This document shows positions 40,994 through 47,659 of a DNA stretch of 64,000 bases, one piece after another (the stretch's first letter is position 1; every line of letters begins with the position of its first letter). The position numbers and the translations under genes are program-made. The notes under the pieces are model-generated. The model saw only the letters and a program-made list of their open reading frames with translations, searched no databases and was not told where the DNA came from. The stretch comes from Bacteroidota bacterium. GTDB lineage: Bacteria > Bacteroidota > Bacteroidia > Chitinophagales > Saprospiraceae. Location of the stretch: assembly GCA_030147525.1 (NCBI GenBank), contig JASBVF010000006.1:1-64000 (forward strand), given 5' to 3'.

Positions 40994-42265
40994 CTATTTT
41001 TCTTCTACCTCAACCGCCGGCGCCTTCCACTTGACGTAACCCACCGGCACTTCCTCCGCTTTTTTAACGGCCTTACCCGAACGCTGTTTGTCATAAATCA
41101 TGGCAAATGTCATGATCAGGCCGGAAGCAATGATGATGAAAAGCAGAATACCCGGCTCAAATCCGGCAACCTGCGCCGACTCCGGAATGGCATAAAACAG
41201 CAGAATGGTGATCAATCCACGGGGTGCGATGAACAACTGCGGGATAATATCACTGCCAAGGAAAATCCGCAAAATCACATAGCGGATAACATAAATGGAC
41301 AACAAAATCAATCCGCTCACGATGGCTACGTCAAGACTGCCCAGCGAGGCGATGGAAATGGTAAGTCCAAAAATGACAAAGAAAAACGTGCGCACAACGA
41401 ACGCTGTTTCCATGGTGACGATGTGCAGGCCCTCGTAAATGTTTTTCGCCCGCTCGATGTGCAGCCACCGGCCCAGTTTACCCTGAAAAAACAGGGGCAT
41501 ATTGGCGATAATCAACCCGAAAATGAGGATGATGATTAGGGAAGACAAGTGCATTTTTTTACCCAGGGCGTAGAGCAGCAGCAGCACGGCTATCAACAGG
41601 AATAACTTGACATGGCTTCTGATGCTTTGAAAAATAAATACAATCGCATAACTCGCTACAATTGAAATGGCGATCGTGAGCGCAATATTTCCAAAAAAAC
41701 CGCCGATCCCGTTCGACTCGGTAGCTGTTTCAAAAGGCCCTACCAGGAAATAAAAAAGCATGATGCCGAGGATATCCGAAAAGGTGCTTTCATAAATGTG
41801 AAACTCCCGCTTCGCATTGCCCAGTCCGCTGACGCTGGGGATGATGATGGCACTCGACAGGATGGAAAGCGGCGTGGCATACAACCAGGCCTGCGCCATG
41901 GTCATGCCTGGGACAAACTCAAATAAAACAAGCGCAGCCACCCAGGCCGAAGCCAATAATCCGATGAGCGCAATGATCAACGCCTTGGCGATGGGCACGA
42001 GTTTATCCCGCTTCAACTCCAGTTCCAGCGCAGCTTCCAGTACAATCATGATTAAACCCACAATACCCAGCACTTCCAGGATGGGGAAAAAGTCAAGGTC
42101 GCCCATGCCAAATGCATCGAGGCCGAGCTTCAAAACAATCCCCAACGCTATCAGCATCAACACGGACGGAATGTTGGTCTTCCTTGAAAGCTCTCCGAAA
42201 AGAAAAGACAAAATCAGAATGGCAGATGCTTCGATGATGAGATTGTAGGATGCAAGTATTTCCAT
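40994..42265 (-). CDS. Cation:proton antiporter (CPA1/NhaP-like)
   Basis: The 423-residue protein has about eleven to twelve membrane segments. It shows PLSILSSAIIIPSVSGL and YESTFSDILGIMLFYFL, where the Asp in FSDILG is in the place of the ion-binding ND/xD motif, and APRGLITILLF late in the sequence. It would exchange Na+ or K+ for protons across the inner membrane. The ATG at 42265 is chosen because it opens the first membrane segment directly; the longer reading runs back into the preceding gene. It is the third gene of an operon with the MscS-like and P-loop ATPase genes. The soluble tail (KKAEEVPVGYVKW) is short. Confidence 0.9.
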   Translation of the reverse strand: MEILASYNLIIEASAILILSFLFGELSRKTNIPSVLMLIALGIVLKLGLDAFGMGDLDFFPILEVLGIVGLIMIVLEAALELELKRDKLVPIAKALIIALIGLLASAWVAALVLFEFVPGMTMAQAWLYATPLSILSSAIIIPSVSGLGNAKREFHIYESTFSDILGIMLFYFLVGPFETATESNGIGGFFGNIALTIAISIVASYAIVFIFQSIRSHVKLFLLIAVLLLLYALGKKMHLSSLIIILIFGLIIANMPLFFQGKLGRWLHIERAKNIYEGLHIVTMETAFVVRTFFFVIFGLTISIASLGSLDVAIVSGLILLSIYVIRYVILRIFLGSDIIPQLFIAPRGLITILLFYAIPESAQVAGFEPGILLFIIIASGLIMTFAMIYDKQRSGKAVKKAEEVPVGYVKWKAPAVEVEEK

Positions 42266-42318
42266 GTTCGGAATATTTTTCTGTGTAACGGGTTTAAAAA
42301 AAAGCTTCAGGAAAAGTT

Positions 42319-43044
42319 TCAATTCTGCGACTGACATAAAAAGCCCCACTCCTTCATCAGCCTGCGCAGGTCGTGGAGATATTTTTCGTCTTTCAGCAGA
42401 AACTTGGCTTCCAAATAACCCCCGCTCTCCGGCACGATCATTTCCGGTTTTTGATGCCAGTCGAGGTAGGGATTCGTTGCCAGTAAATCGAACAAATGGG
42501 AGGCATTCAGCCGCCCGTTTTTATCGTCAGCCAGGGTGATACGCAGGTGGCAAAATCCACCGGATTCCTCCCCGGAAACGAGCGTATAGCCTTCGCCCAG
42601 CAATTTTTGATAACTGATGTGATGCGGGCCATCGGGTGTCTGAAGGTGCAAACCCAGGTTGCCGAGCCTCGAAATCACGCCCTCCGTCTCGTTCGTTTTC
42701 ACCCGCTTGCCTTTCACAACCGAACGGTCCAGGTGAACGAAACGGCCGCTCATGTAATTTCGGATATGACTGAATCCGGTAAAAACTACCAGCCCGATCA
42801 ACAGCCCGTGAAAAGGCGGATTGATGAAGATAAAAATGCTGCTCAGCAGCACTATCGCCAGGGGTTCGAACAAGGTCAGCAGGTCCTGCACAAACTTGTA
42901 GGGTCGCAGACCGAATCTGCTCTTGGATGTCGACGCTGCCAGCAATCGCCGCACAAACCGTAGCAGGAAATACAGCAAGAGCAGCCCAAGTGCATTGAGC
43001 AGAAAGTTGAACCAGGTGAATTGTATGGATAAAAAATCTTCCAT
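42319..43044 (-). CDS. Membrane protein with MscS-like channel domain
   Basis: The 241-residue protein has three to four membrane segments (about 8-34, 58-75, 78-92). A conserved Arg-rich helix (HIRNYMSGR) follows, then a beta-domain typical of MscS: VKGKRVKTNETEGVISRLGN and HLQTPDGPHHISYQKLL (about 109-146), and a small alpha/beta C-terminal domain. MscS proteins open on membrane tension and release ions. The pore helix here is shorter and less Gly/Ala-rich than in E. coli MscS, so channel function is inferred. It is the middle gene of the operon, 41 bp after the ATPase gene and 54 bp before the antiporter gene. Confidence 0.78.
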   Translation of the reverse strand: MEDFLSIQFTWFNFLLNALGLLLLYFLLRFVRRLLAASTSKSRFGLRPYKFVQDLLTLFEPLAIVLLSSIFIFINPPFHGLLIGLVVFTGFSHIRNYMSGRFVHLDRSVVKGKRVKTNETEGVISRLGNLGLHLQTPDGPHHISYQKLLGEGYTLVSGEESGGFCHLRITLADDKNGRLNASHLFDLLATNPYLDWHQKPEMIVPESGGYLEAKFLLKDEKYLHDLRRLMKEWGFLCQSQN

Positions 43045-43084
43045 TTTGTTGAATTTGTTTCCGGCAATCAGGCCGGACTTCAGA

Positions 43085-45481
43085 TTACCGGTCGTTGCCT
43101 GTCAGATAGCCTTTTTGTTCCAGCAACTGCCCGGTGCCATTGGCCACCAGGTCGTTCATTTCCAGCCAGTCGTCGGGCTGCCGCATCAAAATACCCATGC
43201 TCACCAACCGCTGAAGCACATTGACATAACGCTCTGAAAATGAAGGCCCCAGCAGTTTACGAAGCCGGTATTCGTTCGTCCGTTTCTGCAGCATGACGGA
43301 GGAAAGCAGCAACGCCGTTTCAGGATTCAAAAAGTCAGGCAATGAATATTTGGGTGAAAAACGACTGACCACGTAGTCGTCGTCCAACACCCAGATCGAA
43401 CAGGACCAGTGACTGAGCGCCTCGCCGATGTTACCTCCGGTCATCCGGTAAATAGCAGTGGTGATTTTATTAAATTCCTTAGGCGAAAGCGGGTTGCGCT
43501 CCTCGTCTACCAGTTTTTTATGAGTGGCGCCATGCCGGATGAGAATCGCTTGCCTGACGTCTTCCGGTTTCATCCGGTCGAGCTTGATGGCTCCCTGAAA
43601 AACCTTGTCAAAGTCCAGGAATGTTTCCAGGTGTTTTTTGAGCCAGGTGCTCATCGACACCATAAAAAATATGCTGCCCGCATGGTCATCCATAAATTCA
43701 ATCAGCGACCGGACGTTTCGGGTCAACGGAATATCGGGACTCGACCAGAGCTCCAGGTCGTCGATCCATACCAGTGGGCGAGCGTTCAGGTTGTATTTTT
43801 TAACGAATTGCAGGCATTCGGCCAGGTCGAACGTAGGGTCCATCTTGCGGCCTTTCACATTCACCGGCTCGTAGGGTGAAATGCGGATCGTATTTCCCGG
43901 GAAAAACCGATGTGCGGCCACTTCCCCAAACAGGGACTTTCCCGCAAAACGTCGGCCGGTAACACAAACCGCCCCCCGGAACCCAACGCTCCAGTTCTCA
44001 ACCAGTCGTCCGAAATGCTCCAGTTCCTCCACCCGCCCGACGGCGAATGATTCCCCGATGTAACCTTTTGTGATAAAAATATTGGCATAGGGCGCATTGG
44101 CAGGGTCACCCGAACGGGCATTGATGTACCTCGCCGCTTTTTCCGGGATGCTCAGTTTTTCCTCCTGTTCCACGTTTCGCAAGAGATTCCGCAGAAAGTC
44201 GGTTTTGGTTAAATACCAATCCTTCAGCCTCCTTACCCACTTGTTTTGCCGCAGGGAAAACTGGTCGATGGTCGACTGCAGGGGTACCGGCAGAAAATCG
44301 TCTCCATATTTAAAAATGTAGGAAAGGCGGAAGGAAGTTTCCATCCTTTTGCTGACCAGGTGCGACAGGAGGCTCATTTCTGAGCTGGTTTTTTCAAGGT
44401 TGTTTTTGAAAAAGCGCAGCGGCTGTTGCAAGTCAATTTTTACTGTTTCCGAAGGCTTCACCTCTTTTGAATCACTGGACATGAGCGAAGCCCGGTTACG
44501 AATGTTGACGAGCGCCATTTTCATTCCGTTGGCAGCGCTCTCTGCCAGTTCCCAGATTTCATACAGCAGCGGCAATATCTCCGAATCCAGCCATTGGCGG
44601 GTACGTTTTTTTATCAAAACATCACTCACCTGCAGTTTCCCGCCAAGCACGCCGATGCAAACCTGTGTTTGACCGGGCAGCCGGTCGTACAAACCGCCCA
44701 GTGCCTCGCCATAAATATTGAGGTGTTGCTTCAGGTCCAACTGCTCGGCCAGATCTTCAATGGCCGCAGCAATTTTTCCGGGATGCTCGCTGTACTCTTC
44801 AAGAATGGCAGCCGCTTTTTCGTCGAGCATGGCAGCAGTGGTAAGCTCCTCTTTACAGGCAACAAGCAAGGCGGTGGTCTGCAGCCGGATTTCATTAAAG
44901 ACAACCGATGACGTGTCAAGCTCCTCGTAGCGTTTCACCAGACTGTTGCATTGTTCTACCAACTGCTCCATCTGCTGTTTGTAAACCGGCCACGGGTTTT
45001 TCTGCAACTTCCAGCGGGAAGCCATTTTATCGGCAGCCACCCTTCTGTTATTGTAAATCTGCAAGCCGTGGTCGAGGTTCCCCATCAATTCTTCCGCAGC
45101 CGTTGAAAGGGCGACGCCTGACGATTCGTCCAGTTTTTGCAGCGCCTCCTTGCTCACCGATCCTTCAGATTGCAGGATCAGCGCTTTTTGTATTTCGAAA
45201 ATGACATCCCGCCAGAGAATCAAAAACGCCTTGGCCTGTTCGGCCCATTGGTAGTTTAAATAACAAACGGTAAAGCGATCCTGGCCGGTGATTTGAATTT
45301 TTTCATGGCTAAACAAGTCATACGCATGGTCGCCGGGAGTGCTTAACGCCGCCAGCACTTCACCGGCCTTTTCAGCCAAAATAGCCGGTCGGTCCACCAT
45401 ACTAACGGACTCCCAACACTGCGCAACTGCCTGCCGCAGGGTTTGGGTCGTTTGCTCTATACTTATGTGAAGGTTTTCCAT
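43085..45481 (-). CDS. Large coiled-coil P-loop ATPase (STAND/AAA-like), unknown function
   Basis: The 798-residue protein starts with about 450 residues of helical, coiled-coil-prone sequence without known domains. A P-loop NTPase module follows: VTGRRFAGKSLFG (Walker A, about 505-518), RPLVWIDDLELW (Walker B with tandem Asp, about 570-581), FFMVSMSTW (sensor-1 position), then a helical lid. A winged-helix-like C-terminus ends it (LQKRTNEYRLRKLLG, LVSMGILMRQPDDWLEM). The order sensor-ATPase-winged helix recalls STAND and AAA regulators. I do not recognise a named family. It heads an operon with an MscS-like channel and an antiporter and probably works with them at the membrane. A -7 box lies 46 bp upstream. 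Confidence 0.85.
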   Translation of the reverse strand: MENLHISIEQTTQTLRQAVAQCWESVSMVDRPAILAEKAGEVLAALSTPGDHAYDLFSHEKIQITGQDRFTVCYLNYQWAEQAKAFLILWRDVIFEIQKALILQSEGSVSKEALQKLDESSGVALSTAAEELMGNLDHGLQIYNNRRVAADKMASRWKLQKNPWPVYKQQMEQLVEQCNSLVKRYEELDTSSVVFNEIRLQTTALLVACKEELTTAAMLDEKAAAILEEYSEHPGKIAAAIEDLAEQLDLKQHLNIYGEALGGLYDRLPGQTQVCIGVLGGKLQVSDVLIKKRTRQWLDSEILPLLYEIWELAESAANGMKMALVNIRNRASLMSSDSKEVKPSETVKIDLQQPLRFFKNNLEKTSSEMSLLSHLVSKRMETSFRLSYIFKYGDDFLPVPLQSTIDQFSLRQNKWVRRLKDWYLTKTDFLRNLLRNVEQEEKLSIPEKAARYINARSGDPANAPYANIFITKGYIGESFAVGRVEELEHFGRLVENWSVGFRGAVCVTGRRFAGKSLFGEVAAHRFFPGNTIRISPYEPVNVKGRKMDPTFDLAECLQFVKKYNLNARPLVWIDDLELWSSPDIPLTRNVRSLIEFMDDHAGSIFFMVSMSTWLKKHLETFLDFDKVFQGAIKLDRMKPEDVRQAILIRHGATHKKLVDEERNPLSPKEFNKITTAIYRMTGGNIGEALSHWSCSIWVLDDDYVVSRFSPKYSLPDFLNPETALLLSSVMLQKRTNEYRLRKLLGPSFSERYVNVLQRLVSMGILMRQPDDWLEMNDLVANGTGQLLEQKGYLTGNDR

Positions 45482-45526: not shown

Positions 45527-45534
45527 CAAAAGTA
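45527..45534 (-). promoter_or_regulatory. -7 box TACTTTTG for the ATPase-channel-antiporter operon
   Basis: This is an exact TAnnTTTG match on the minus strand, 46 bp upstream of the ATPase start codon. It lies in the 105-bp divergent gap shared with the GH13-like gene. Confidence 0.6.
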
Positions 45535-45586: not shown

Positions 45587-47659
45587 ATGGTTCGGTTATT
45601 TTTGCCAAAAAAAATGCCTGACACCCTCACCTCCGATTACGCTTCCGCTCAAACCAACTGGCAAAAAAACCATTCGCAGTGGGTGGAAGATTTCACCTCG
45701 CACCGCCTCAGTTTCATCCCCGGCCTGCTGCCGGAGTGGGCTGTCAGCATTCCCAACCCTCAACTGCTTCCCATCCTTGAAAAACGGCTTGGCAAAGCCA
45801 CCCTCGAAGCCTGCCTGCAACCGGAAGAAACATGGCCCTCAGCAGCTGCCGGCCAGCCATCGGCCGGCTGGCTGAAGCGGACAAACATGGCCGGCATCAA
45901 TGTCCGTACCATTCAGAATTTCTGGAATGTGGTGAAATACGCCCTGACACTGCCCGCCAGCCAAAGCGCCATTCACCTGCTGCCCATCTGGGAGCCCGGC
46001 GTCGTTTCGAGCCTCTACGGCATCGCCTCCTGGAACATCAACCCGGAGTTTTTCAGTCAGGAATTGTACGAGACTTACCCGCATCTTGACACTGTGGAGC
46101 GGCAGCTAAAAGTCACCGTCAACCTGTTGCATACTTTGGGCAAATCGGTCGGGCTGGACGTCATCCCGCACACGGACCGCTATTCGGAGGTGGTGCTGGC
46201 CAACCCGCAGTATTTCGAATGGCTTCAGCGAAAGGGGACAAAAATCGTAAATCACTTGAACAACCTCCACGAGCAGGTGCAGGACGCCATTCTCGATTTT
46301 TTACAAAAAAACGGCAGCAACGGCGTGGTTTGCCCGGAGGGCCGGGAAGCGTTTTTTGGTGAAACATTTGGCGAAGCCAACCGCATCCTTGCGCTCTTCG
46401 GCATGTTGCGGGACTATGGCCAGCGCAGTGAACGCCGGGCTGCTTTGATGGACCACCTCTTCAACCTCGGCTACGAACCCGCCCCCGCCACCATGGCCCC
46501 GCCTTACCGGGGACTGAAAGTGGATCCCGCCTCCGTCACCATCGACAGCCAGGGCCGTGAATGGGTGGATTATGTGATTGAAAACCCTACCTCCATGTCG
46601 AGGGTTTTCGGGCCATTGACGAGGTTCAAGTTTTATGAAAACAAAAACGACAACAAGGATTGGGAAATCGATTTTTCAAATCCGAAAAAAGACGTCTGGG
46701 CCTATTTCACTTCAGCCTACGCACAGATTGCCCGTGAGTACAACTTTGATTTCATGCGGGGCGACATGTCGCACGTGCAAATGCGGGCGGAGGGCGTGCC
46801 TGCTCAGCCGGATGATTTTTACGACCCTTTGCGGGCGGTGCGGAATTTTATCCAATTGGAAAAGCCCCACTTCGGCTACTTCGCCGAGAGCTTTCTCGGC
46901 CCGGCCGGCTACCTTGCCTACGGCGACGAAGTGGACCACCTCGAGGCGGCGGACGCCGATACCACGCTCGGCGATTTGCAAAGCATGGTGGTCGGGTCTC
47001 CGGAGTTCCTTCAGAATTTCCGCTGGTACCTCGACATACTTGCCACCCGCCGGGTGACGCCCAGTTTCACCATCATGACGGGCGACAAGGATGACCCTCG
47101 TTTCGACAAATTTTATGTGGGCGGCAACGAGGCACGGCTGTTCATGGCCTTGTTCCTGCCGGATATGCCGAGCTACATGGGGCTGGGCTTTGAAAGCAGA
47201 GACCGCCACCTCTCCCCTGCCCCCAACGAGCATTACACCAAGCTTTTTGTGTTTAAAATCAGCGACGGGCCAAAGGCTACGAAGGGTAGCTATGTTTGGG
47301 GGAAAAATGCCGCACTGTTCGCCAACCTGCTGAAAATCAGAATGTTTGCCGAAGGTTTTATGCCCGGCATCGCTAACTGCAACACCCGCTGGCTGCTGCC
47401 GCCCGACCCGACCGGCCATAAAAAAATCATCGCCTGGACGCTGACAGAAAAGCCGGAATTGCTTTTTGTCGTCAACCTCGACTGGGAGCACGAAGCGCTG
47501 AATGTGAAAATTCCCTCTCCTGTAAAAATTACCGGCGCTGAAAACTGGCAGCTTGTTTTCTCCACCCTGGAGGAAAACACCGAAAACCTGACCGGATCGG
47601 TCAACCTGCAACTTTCCCGGATTGGCAAGGGTGAAGCCAGAATTTATCAGTCAAAATAA
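45587..47659 (+). CDS. GH13-like (alpha-amylase family) glycosidase
   Basis: The 690-residue protein reads as a TIM barrel with amylase-family regions in order: DVIPHTDR (about 191-198, region I), FDFMRGDMSHV (about 387-397, with Asp nucleophile and preceding Arg), FAESFLG (about 432, with acid/base Glu), and IMTGDKDD (about 495, where HD is usual). A C-terminal beta domain follows (FVVNLDWEHEALNVKIPSP). It has no signal peptide, so it acts on an internal alpha-glucan or a sugar transfer product. The substrate is not evident. The ATG at 45614 is an alternative start. It is transcribed away from the ATPase operon, and its 3' end is 31 bp from the convergent amidase. Confidence 0.8.
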   Translation: MVRLFLPKKMPDTLTSDYASAQTNWQKNHSQWVEDFTSHRLSFIPGLLPEWAVSIPNPQLLPILEKRLGKATLEACLQPEETWPSAAAGQPSAGWLKRTNMAGINVRTIQNFWNVVKYALTLPASQSAIHLLPIWEPGVVSSLYGIASWNINPEFFSQELYETYPHLDTVERQLKVTVNLLHTLGKSVGLDVIPHTDRYSEVVLANPQYFEWLQRKGTKIVNHLNNLHEQVQDAILDFLQKNGSNGVVCPEGREAFFGETFGEANRILALFGMLRDYGQRSERRAALMDHLFNLGYEPAPATMAPPYRGLKVDPASVTIDSQGREWVDYVIENPTSMSRVFGPLTRFKFYENKNDNKDWEIDFSNPKKDVWAYFTSAYAQIAREYNFDFMRGDMSHVQMRAEGVPAQPDDFYDPLRAVRNFIQLEKPHFGYFAESFLGPAGYLAYGDEVDHLEAADADTTLGDLQSMVVGSPEFLQNFRWYLDILATRRVTPSFTIMTGDKDDPRFDKFYVGGNEARLFMALFLPDMPSYMGLGFESRDRHLSPAPNEHYTKLFVFKISDGPKATKGSYVWGKNAALFANLLKIRMFAEGFMPGIANCNTRWLLPPDPTGHKKIIAWTLTEKPELLFVVNLDWEHEALNVKIPSPVKITGAENWQLVFSTLEENTENLTGSVNLQLSRIGKGEARIYQSK

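Follow-up and report, generated by a model that had tools for sequence, protein, structure and literature searches.

A conserved Bacteroidota operon of an ATPase, an MscS-like protein and an Na+/H+ exchanger-type antiporter is a candidate ion-transport control module

Introduction

What might an ATPase, a relative of a mechanosensitive channel and an ion antiporter do together in one operon? The question is raised by positions 40,994 to 45,481 of contig JASBVF010000006.1 from a Bacteroidota bacterium of the Saprospiraceae (GenBank assembly GCA_030147525.1; 7.08 Mb in 59 contigs), of which we analyzed the first 64,000 nucleotides (the window). Three minus-strand open reading frames (ORFs) encode, in transcription order, a 798-residue AAA+/STAND-like ATPase (43085..45481), a 241-residue MscS-like membrane protein that we term a pseudo-MscS (42319..43044), and a 423-residue antiporter of the Na+/H+ exchanger type (40994..42265). 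An initial annotation, made from the DNA letters, had proposed that the ATPase reads a signal and gates ion flow, possibly as a new stress or defence system. Our analyses make it fairly probable that the operon is an ion-transport control module in which the antiporter serves as the effector and the pseudo-MscS and ATPase as a sensor-switch.

Results

The three genes are conserved as one unit

Among 298 genomes drawn from the order, the ATPase was present in 31. The 31 genomes with the highest antiporter scores (616.9 bits or more, the next being 543.8) were the same 31, the two genome lists having been matched by eye, and two genomes of the same genus had neither protein. All 30 loci examined by tblastn, that of the window among them, had the antiporter next to the ATPase, and genome G086 (locus L060) showed the same arrangement, so that the two genes were adjacent in all 31. 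The MscS-like gene was detected in 25 of the 30 loci by tblastn and in 28 of 31 by profiles with G086 added. The other three comprise L057 and L058, which carry a shortened relative without the beta-domain (hhalign 9.3e-11 to the MscS-like protein), and L055, in which none was found. The tail of the L055 ATPase was considered as a captured MscS domain and rejected (hhalign 10.3 against 8.3 to 12.9 in 20 shuffles).

An alignment search of genome contigs gave 101 named loci, of which 80 were kept; a single-protein query gave 0. These relatives belong to Saprospiraceae, Lewinella, Neolewinella and similar taxa. The MscS-like gene occurred in 76 of the 80 loci, and of the other four, three end 71 to 332 bp past the ATPase at contig ends and the fourth is L110. 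Clustering of the ORFs of at least 150 residues left after overlap removal recovered the ATPase in all 80 loci and the antiporter and MscS-like protein in 72 each, with the next most frequent family in 7. The coincidence of the ATPase and the best-scoring antiporters in one set of 31 genomes out of 298, together with the lack of a comparable recurring flank, indicates that this association is more than chance. The three-gene unit described in the initial annotation withstood comparison with other genomes: the gene order is kept, for window-type units the ATPase homologues were not found mostly without the other two genes, and the ATPase gave no confident match to an unrelated known family. More distant ATPase relatives lack this antiporter and nearly always have an MscS-like gene. 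As a separate observation, the type I ATPase of L110 (7812-10199, plus strand) is followed by genes for a solute-binding protein, a permease and an ABC ATPase, with no MscS-like or antiporter gene there.

A wider ATPase family is paired with MscS-like proteins and different transporters

A profile of the ATPase domain matched 76 of 395 genomes of the phylum at E 1.5e-19 or better, in 78 places as tallied from the search listing, and 40 of the 78 were fetched. The raw tally of 389 of 395 genomes was not used. Matches near E 1e-8 to 1e-10, among those listed, covered approximately residues 25-121 of frames that were mostly about 850 residues long and were set aside as generic AAA proteins, presumably ClpB-like, rather than family members. 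An MscS-like frame on the strand of the ATPase either adjoined the end of the ATPase frame or overlapped it in 40 of 40 fetched places; in L294 and L295, the MscS-like frames (151 and 150 bits) overlap a 5' extension of the ATPase frame. In the class draw, an MscS-like gene was found in 16 of 20 fetched regions, those without one being L243 (at a contig end), L246, L253 and L251, the last of which has no ATPase by profile. Over all regions examined, 162 of 174 contained an MscS-like gene, a count that includes duplicates between two genome collections. L243, L246 and L253 encode ATPase relatives of about 1125 residues with an intact P-loop and no MscS-like neighbor seen, and the L253 gene comes after a tRNA isopentenyltransferase gene.

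We sorted these loci by architecture, with the operon in the window as type I. In type II, an SLC12-type cotransporter is fused to the ATPase (12 loci by phmmer; PF00324 at 1.8e-46 to 8.5e-49 in the five scanned and PF03522 in L244 and L284). Behind the transporter, the chain continues with a coiled region of about 600 residues and the ATPase, and MscS is the next gene in 11 of 11 uncut loci, the L064 gene running off the edge of the fetched sequence. Type III consists of a soluble ATPase of about 1000 residues (frames of just 440 to 451 residues in L307-L310) followed by MscS, and in L249, L250, L252 and L296 a CorA gene lies beyond it downstream. In type V, an Na+/H+ exchanger is fused to the ATPase (by Pfam in L287-L290 and by phmmer only in L291-L292), and MscS, TrkH and TrkA follow the fusion; L293 has about 11 transmembrane (TM) helices there and no transporter match. 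In type VI, MscS precedes the ATPase (L311-L319, plus L294 and L295, which stand outside the motif, pore and identity comparisons for this type). Genome G210 contains types I, II and III. Profile comparisons related the ATPase domains of the types to one another (types I and II, 6.9e-39; I and III, 8.6e-34; II and III, 1.3e-68), as well as the helical regions of types II and III (98.9%).

Type V loci also encode a many-helix membrane protein of about 418 residues upstream of the fused transporter-ATPase (L287:13800-15053, minus strand, with counterparts in L288-L293). Neither of the two copies searched against Pfam (L287 and L293) gave a match, and the protein may be an additional antiporter-like subunit that has degenerated.

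The MscS-like protein has lost pore features where a transporter is attached

The initial annotation had called the second gene product an MscS-like channel. Its match to Pfam MS_channel_2nd stayed below the cut-off (17.4 bits versus 20.2), and type I MscS-like proteins matched the ordinary MscS proteins of the host by profile at E 1.1e-12. The AlphaFold2 model (predicted local distance difference test [pLDDT], 87.5) matched MscS structure 7dlu in Foldseek at E 7.5e-10, with a whole-chain TM-score of about 0.30 and a root mean square deviation of about 15 A. As modeled, the protein is a fold-family match with its domains arranged differently in the single chain. It has the same fold as MscS, YnaI and MSL1, and differs from that family in its low identity (11 to 17% among the matches listed), its beta-domain below the Pfam cut-off, its lack of the Gly/Ala pore pattern and PN motif, and its near-constant ATPase neighbor.

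The Gly-plus-Ala fraction of the pore helix was 0.17 in type I (n = 18), 0.20 in type II (n = 11, with one at 0.44) and 0.13 in type V (n = 7), compared with 0.37 in type III (n = 18), 0.44 in type VI (n = 9) and 0.44 in ordinary MscS proteins (n = 7). The ordinary set came from the genome of the window, seven of the eight that were fetched out of 12, after L146 was dropped on length. The PN motif was found in 0 of 18 type I and 0 of 11 type II proteins, and in 7 of 7, 18 of 18, 9 of 9 and 7 of 7 proteins of type V, type III, type VI and the ordinary set, respectively. L239 and L240, which belong to type III but group with type II, were set apart (Gly-plus-Ala fraction, 0.28; PN in 0 of 2).

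Rates of evolution differed in parallel. In type I, mean pairwise identity was 69% for the antiporter, 37% for the ATPase and 34% for the MscS-like protein (37 loci, 666 pairs). For MscS and the ATPase, the respective means were 56% and 35% in type III, 64% and 38% in type VI, 21% and 28% in type II, and 37% and 45% in type V. The best-conserved partner is therefore MscS in types III and VI and the transporter in type I. ATPase and MscS trees, which were built by a quick method and are unrooted, with many weak forks and long branches, gave nearly the same type clusters. As judged from these sequences, an MscS-like protein without a Gly/Ala-rich pore helix accompanies an attached transporter, whereas a soluble ATPase alone goes with an MscS that is mostly canonical and slowly evolving. 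On these unrooted trees, the effector may have been swapped and MscS turned into a sensor or adaptor.

These findings bear on the most durable alternative, that the MscS-like protein is still a channel gated by the ATPase and that the antiporter restores ions afterward, giving two effectors under one switch. Retention of the MscS fold in Foldseek and the pairing of the ATPase with canonical MscS in types III and VI, often with no recognized transporter, speak for such an arrangement. We nevertheless consider it unlikely for the window operon, given that the Gly/Ala pore helix is lost in types I, II and V, that PN is lost in the first two of these, that no other component of types I and II is as poorly conserved as the MscS-like protein, and that L057 and L058 have lost the beta-domain. 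Hence, homology of the second protein to MscS stands, and the word "channel" is doubtful in this operon because the pore-helix composition of MscS has been lost.

The ATPase resembles a nucleotide-dependent switch

The long helical part, Walker A/B module and winged-helix-like end described in the initial annotation were all found in the sequence and in an AlphaFold2 model built from an 81-sequence alignment (mean pLDDT, 88.3). With domain borders read by eye off the secondary structure of the model, the protein comprises an N-terminal long-helix region (residues 1-442; 44156..45481) with a beta hairpin at residues 271-289, an AAA+ domain (approximately residues 484-660; 43502..44032) also supported by profile matches to the fused and soluble relatives, a lid, and a C-terminal winged-helix-like region (approximately residues 720-790; 43112..43324) recognized by its helix and strand order and by fold matches to ORC/Cdc6 and RuvB. 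Mean pairwise identity is 28% in the helical region versus 48% in the ATPase part. Walker A is GRRFAGKS (residues 509-516; 43934..43957), with K515 a lysine in 74 of 81 rows and arginine in 7, and Walker B is LVWIDD (residues 570-575; 43757..43774), with D574 in 81 of 81 rows and D575 in 77 of 81. All of these coordinates lie on the minus strand.

The structure prediction and fold search that had been suggested for this protein returned an AAA+ protein with a winged helix, with ORC2 (E 9.9e-7), RuvB and Cdc6-like AAA+ proteins as the best Foldseek matches in the PDB and FtsH structures also matched. Sequence searches of the PDB with each of the three operon proteins gave no match. Walker A, Walker B, the AAA+ core and the C-terminal winged helix, the features of AAA+/STAND proteins, are all present in the window ATPase, and the P-loop, DD Walker B and winged helix are common to STAND and ORC/Cdc6-like switches (nSTAND, AAA_16, AAA_22). 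The window ATPase differs from these switches in passing no curated model, in showing no repeat sensor or toxic effector and in having ion transport proteins as partners. As the initial annotation had found, no named family can be assigned, with no Pfam or NCBIfam model above cut-off. Among relatives, L290 passes Pfam AAA_22 (32.5 bits versus a cut-off of 27), and Pfam ATPase matches of the others are mostly below cut-off. Matches of the helical part to the BAR domain and GajB were weak and were put down to coiled-coil chance.

Nucleotide-binding motifs are unevenly kept across the family. GK[ST] is present in 12 of 12 type II ATPases (L244 without the first G), and full GxxxxGK[ST] in 4 of 7 of type V, with N or R in the position after GK in L287-L289. 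The loss of the P-loop in type VI and part of type III means that ATP hydrolysis is not general across the wider family. Motif content fits best with a nucleotide-binding switch rather than a motor, binding itself being doubtful in type VI. All nine type VI ATPases of L311-L319 lack GxxxxGK[ST] and still lie beside a canonical MscS.

The ATPase might instead serve in the assembly or quality control of these membrane proteins, as a chaperone for their insertion, folding or recycling, rather than regulating transport from moment to moment. In favor of such a role are the AAA+ fold, which Foldseek matched to structures of ORC, RuvB and FtsH, and the several different membrane proteins that the ATPase accompanies. 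We find this quite unlikely, however, since Pfam recognized no protease domain, Walker B is DD, many relatives have lost the lysine of the P-loop, and an ATPase fused to its transporter, as in types II and V, is more likely to be a permanent subunit.

The antiporter carries a conserved acidic site and nests among stand-alone exchangers

The third gene encodes an ion antiporter, as had been annotated, with PF00999 well above its cut-off (E 2.8e-16; 59.8 bits versus 26.2). The protein is 65 to 79% identical to 36 aligned homologues, and S163-D164, which we take to be the acidic site of TM5, is invariant in all 37 rows, the acidic residue lying within a YESTFSDILG motif. The transporter domain and acidic residue are shared with CPA-type exchangers such as NhaP, KefC and NHE1; the branch of the operon antiporter differs in having been found only with this ATPase in the order draw. 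The regulators of KefC and NHE1 are, to our knowledge, unrelated to this ATPase.

In an exchanger tree, the operon exchanger nests among stand-alone exchangers, and the fused type V exchanger lies on the opposite side of a very long branch. From this long branch, we infer that the ATPase was probably linked to antiporters on two separate occasions. The stand-alone antiporter nearest to that of the operon in this tree (L214:1813-4200, minus strand) shares its chain with a voltage-channel-like domain (PF00520, 9.9e-34), a combination reminiscent of animal SLC9C1, and a CorA gene adjoins it.

A defence role is not supported

A role in stress or phage defence had also been suggested. PADLOC gave one chance-level match for the three operon proteins (GajB, 12.6 bits, in the ATPase helical part). 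Clustering with known defence genes did not emerge either: 91 flanking proteins (of 115 chosen) contained five PADLOC models, each with one member and three of them DpdF models, and the 25 commonest of 67 flanking Pfam families had largely to do with metabolism and translation, NhaB antiporters occurring in two. Searches of 72,556 plasmid and 50,697 phage records with the window ATPase gave no match, nor did a type III ATPase match any of the plasmid records. The type II fusion matched 55 plasmid records, among the 20 listed only over the transporter part. An anti-phage or stress-suicide system, in which infection sensed by the ATPase would lead the membrane proteins to dissipate ion gradients, would suit the STAND-like architecture, the variable helical part and the patchy presence of the unit (31 of 298 genomes, and missing from two of the same genus), but is very improbable in view of the lack of a credible PADLOC match, the mostly metabolic flanks, the lack of a match in the plasmid and phage records searched, and an antiporter that is well conserved with its motif intact.

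Discussion

A model for ion-transport control

In the control module that we favor, the antiporter would be the working part, moving Na+ or K+ in exchange for H+. The MscS-like protein keeps the MscS fold but has probably ceased to be a pore, and may act in the membrane as a sensor of lateral pressure or crowding and as a docking subunit. The ATPase would probably be a cytoplasmic switch, with ATP and ADP states of the AAA+/winged-helix part reshaping the long helical region, which in turn may contact the cytoplasmic face of the antiporter to turn it on or off. In relatives, the same ATPase-MscS pair is accompanied by a different presumed effector, which may be a canonical MscS channel, an SLC12 transporter, an NHE-type exchanger with TrkH/TrkA, or CorA. 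Relatives of the ATPase have been fused separately to transporters of the SLC12 and NHE types, which strengthens the originally proposed link between the ATPase and control of ion flow; the defence part of that proposal is not supported.

Several points weigh against this model. The evidence comes from genomes and predicted models of single proteins. The antiporter profile was made from operon members, which therefore score best partly by construction; related rows inflate the statistics; and the types were named after the data had been seen. L055 has no MscS-like gene and two type I loci have a copy without the beta-domain, indicating that this protein is not strictly needed, and the L110 ATPase precedes an ABC-transporter set. 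A pseudo-MscS also occurs in L239 and L240, where no transporter is fused to the ATPase and a gene for an exchanger lies nearby on the opposite strand. By profile comparison, the type I helical region is not detectably related to that of the fused types or of type III. Finally, GxxxxGK[ST] is present in 17 of 25 type III ATPases and in none of the nine tested from type VI.

Relation to known systems

RCK/KTN-regulated K+ transporters (TrkH-TrkA and KtrAB) are controlled by a separate nucleotide-binding cytoplasmic subunit. The module proposed here would work alike, and its type V form has TrkH and TrkA as neighbors; the regulator differs in being an AAA+/winged-helix ATPase rather than a Rossmann RCK protein, with an MscS-like membrane partner added. 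SLC12 cation-chloride cotransporters, including prokaryotic CCC proteins, are represented by the type II relatives and not in the window, and type II differs from them by the added coiled region of about 600 residues and ATPase, with the MscS-like gene next. Searches of open PubMed Central papers brought up no description of an ATPase-MscS-transporter module. The attachment of relatives of the pair to other ion transporters points to a previously undescribed mode of controlling ion transport.

The ATPase-MscS pair, which accompanies several kinds of ion transport protein, is a concrete candidate answer to the open question of how bacteria sense a change in volume or turgor and signal it to their secondary ion transporters. 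If the model is correct, a mechanosensitive channel fold has been turned into a regulator, and bacteria offer models of SLC12 and NHE transporters with their own ATP-binding switch. SLC12 and NHE transporters are volume regulators of animal cells. The family also provides a built-in genomic comparison of canonical MscS plus ATPase with pseudo-MscS plus transporter plus ATPase. Tentatively, we can envisage a phylum-wide class of Bacteroidota regulators in which the ATPase-MscS pair may have begun as a mechanosensitive-channel switch, a starting state that the unrooted trees leave conditional, and been retargeted at least three times (twice to Na+/H+ exchangers and once to SLC12), after which MscS would have lost its pore and become a tension or crowding sensor. 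Such a class would be a counterpart of animal volume control by NHE1 and NKCC1.

Operon organization and neighboring genes

The three-gene minus-strand arrangement was borne out by the ORF list of the window, with intergenic gaps of 40 and 53 bp in place of the 41 and 54 bp first given. These gaps apply to an antiporter start at ATG 42265, which is supported by near-identical first residues in several homologues; the longest ORF would start at an alternative GTG at 42349. A single promoter for the three genes, as had been claimed, is plausible: a TAnnTTTG motif, the Bacteroidota -7 consensus, lies 45 nt from the ATPase ATG (45527..45534, minus strand) as a candidate -7 element. The motif occurs 45 times in the window with both strands counted. 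The assembly contains one ATPase match and one antiporter match at E 0.001, together with 12 MscS matches to PF00924 that do not include the MscS-like protein of the operon. Divergent from the operon, a gene on the plus strand (45587-47659) encodes a 690-residue protein with no Pfam match at E 1.

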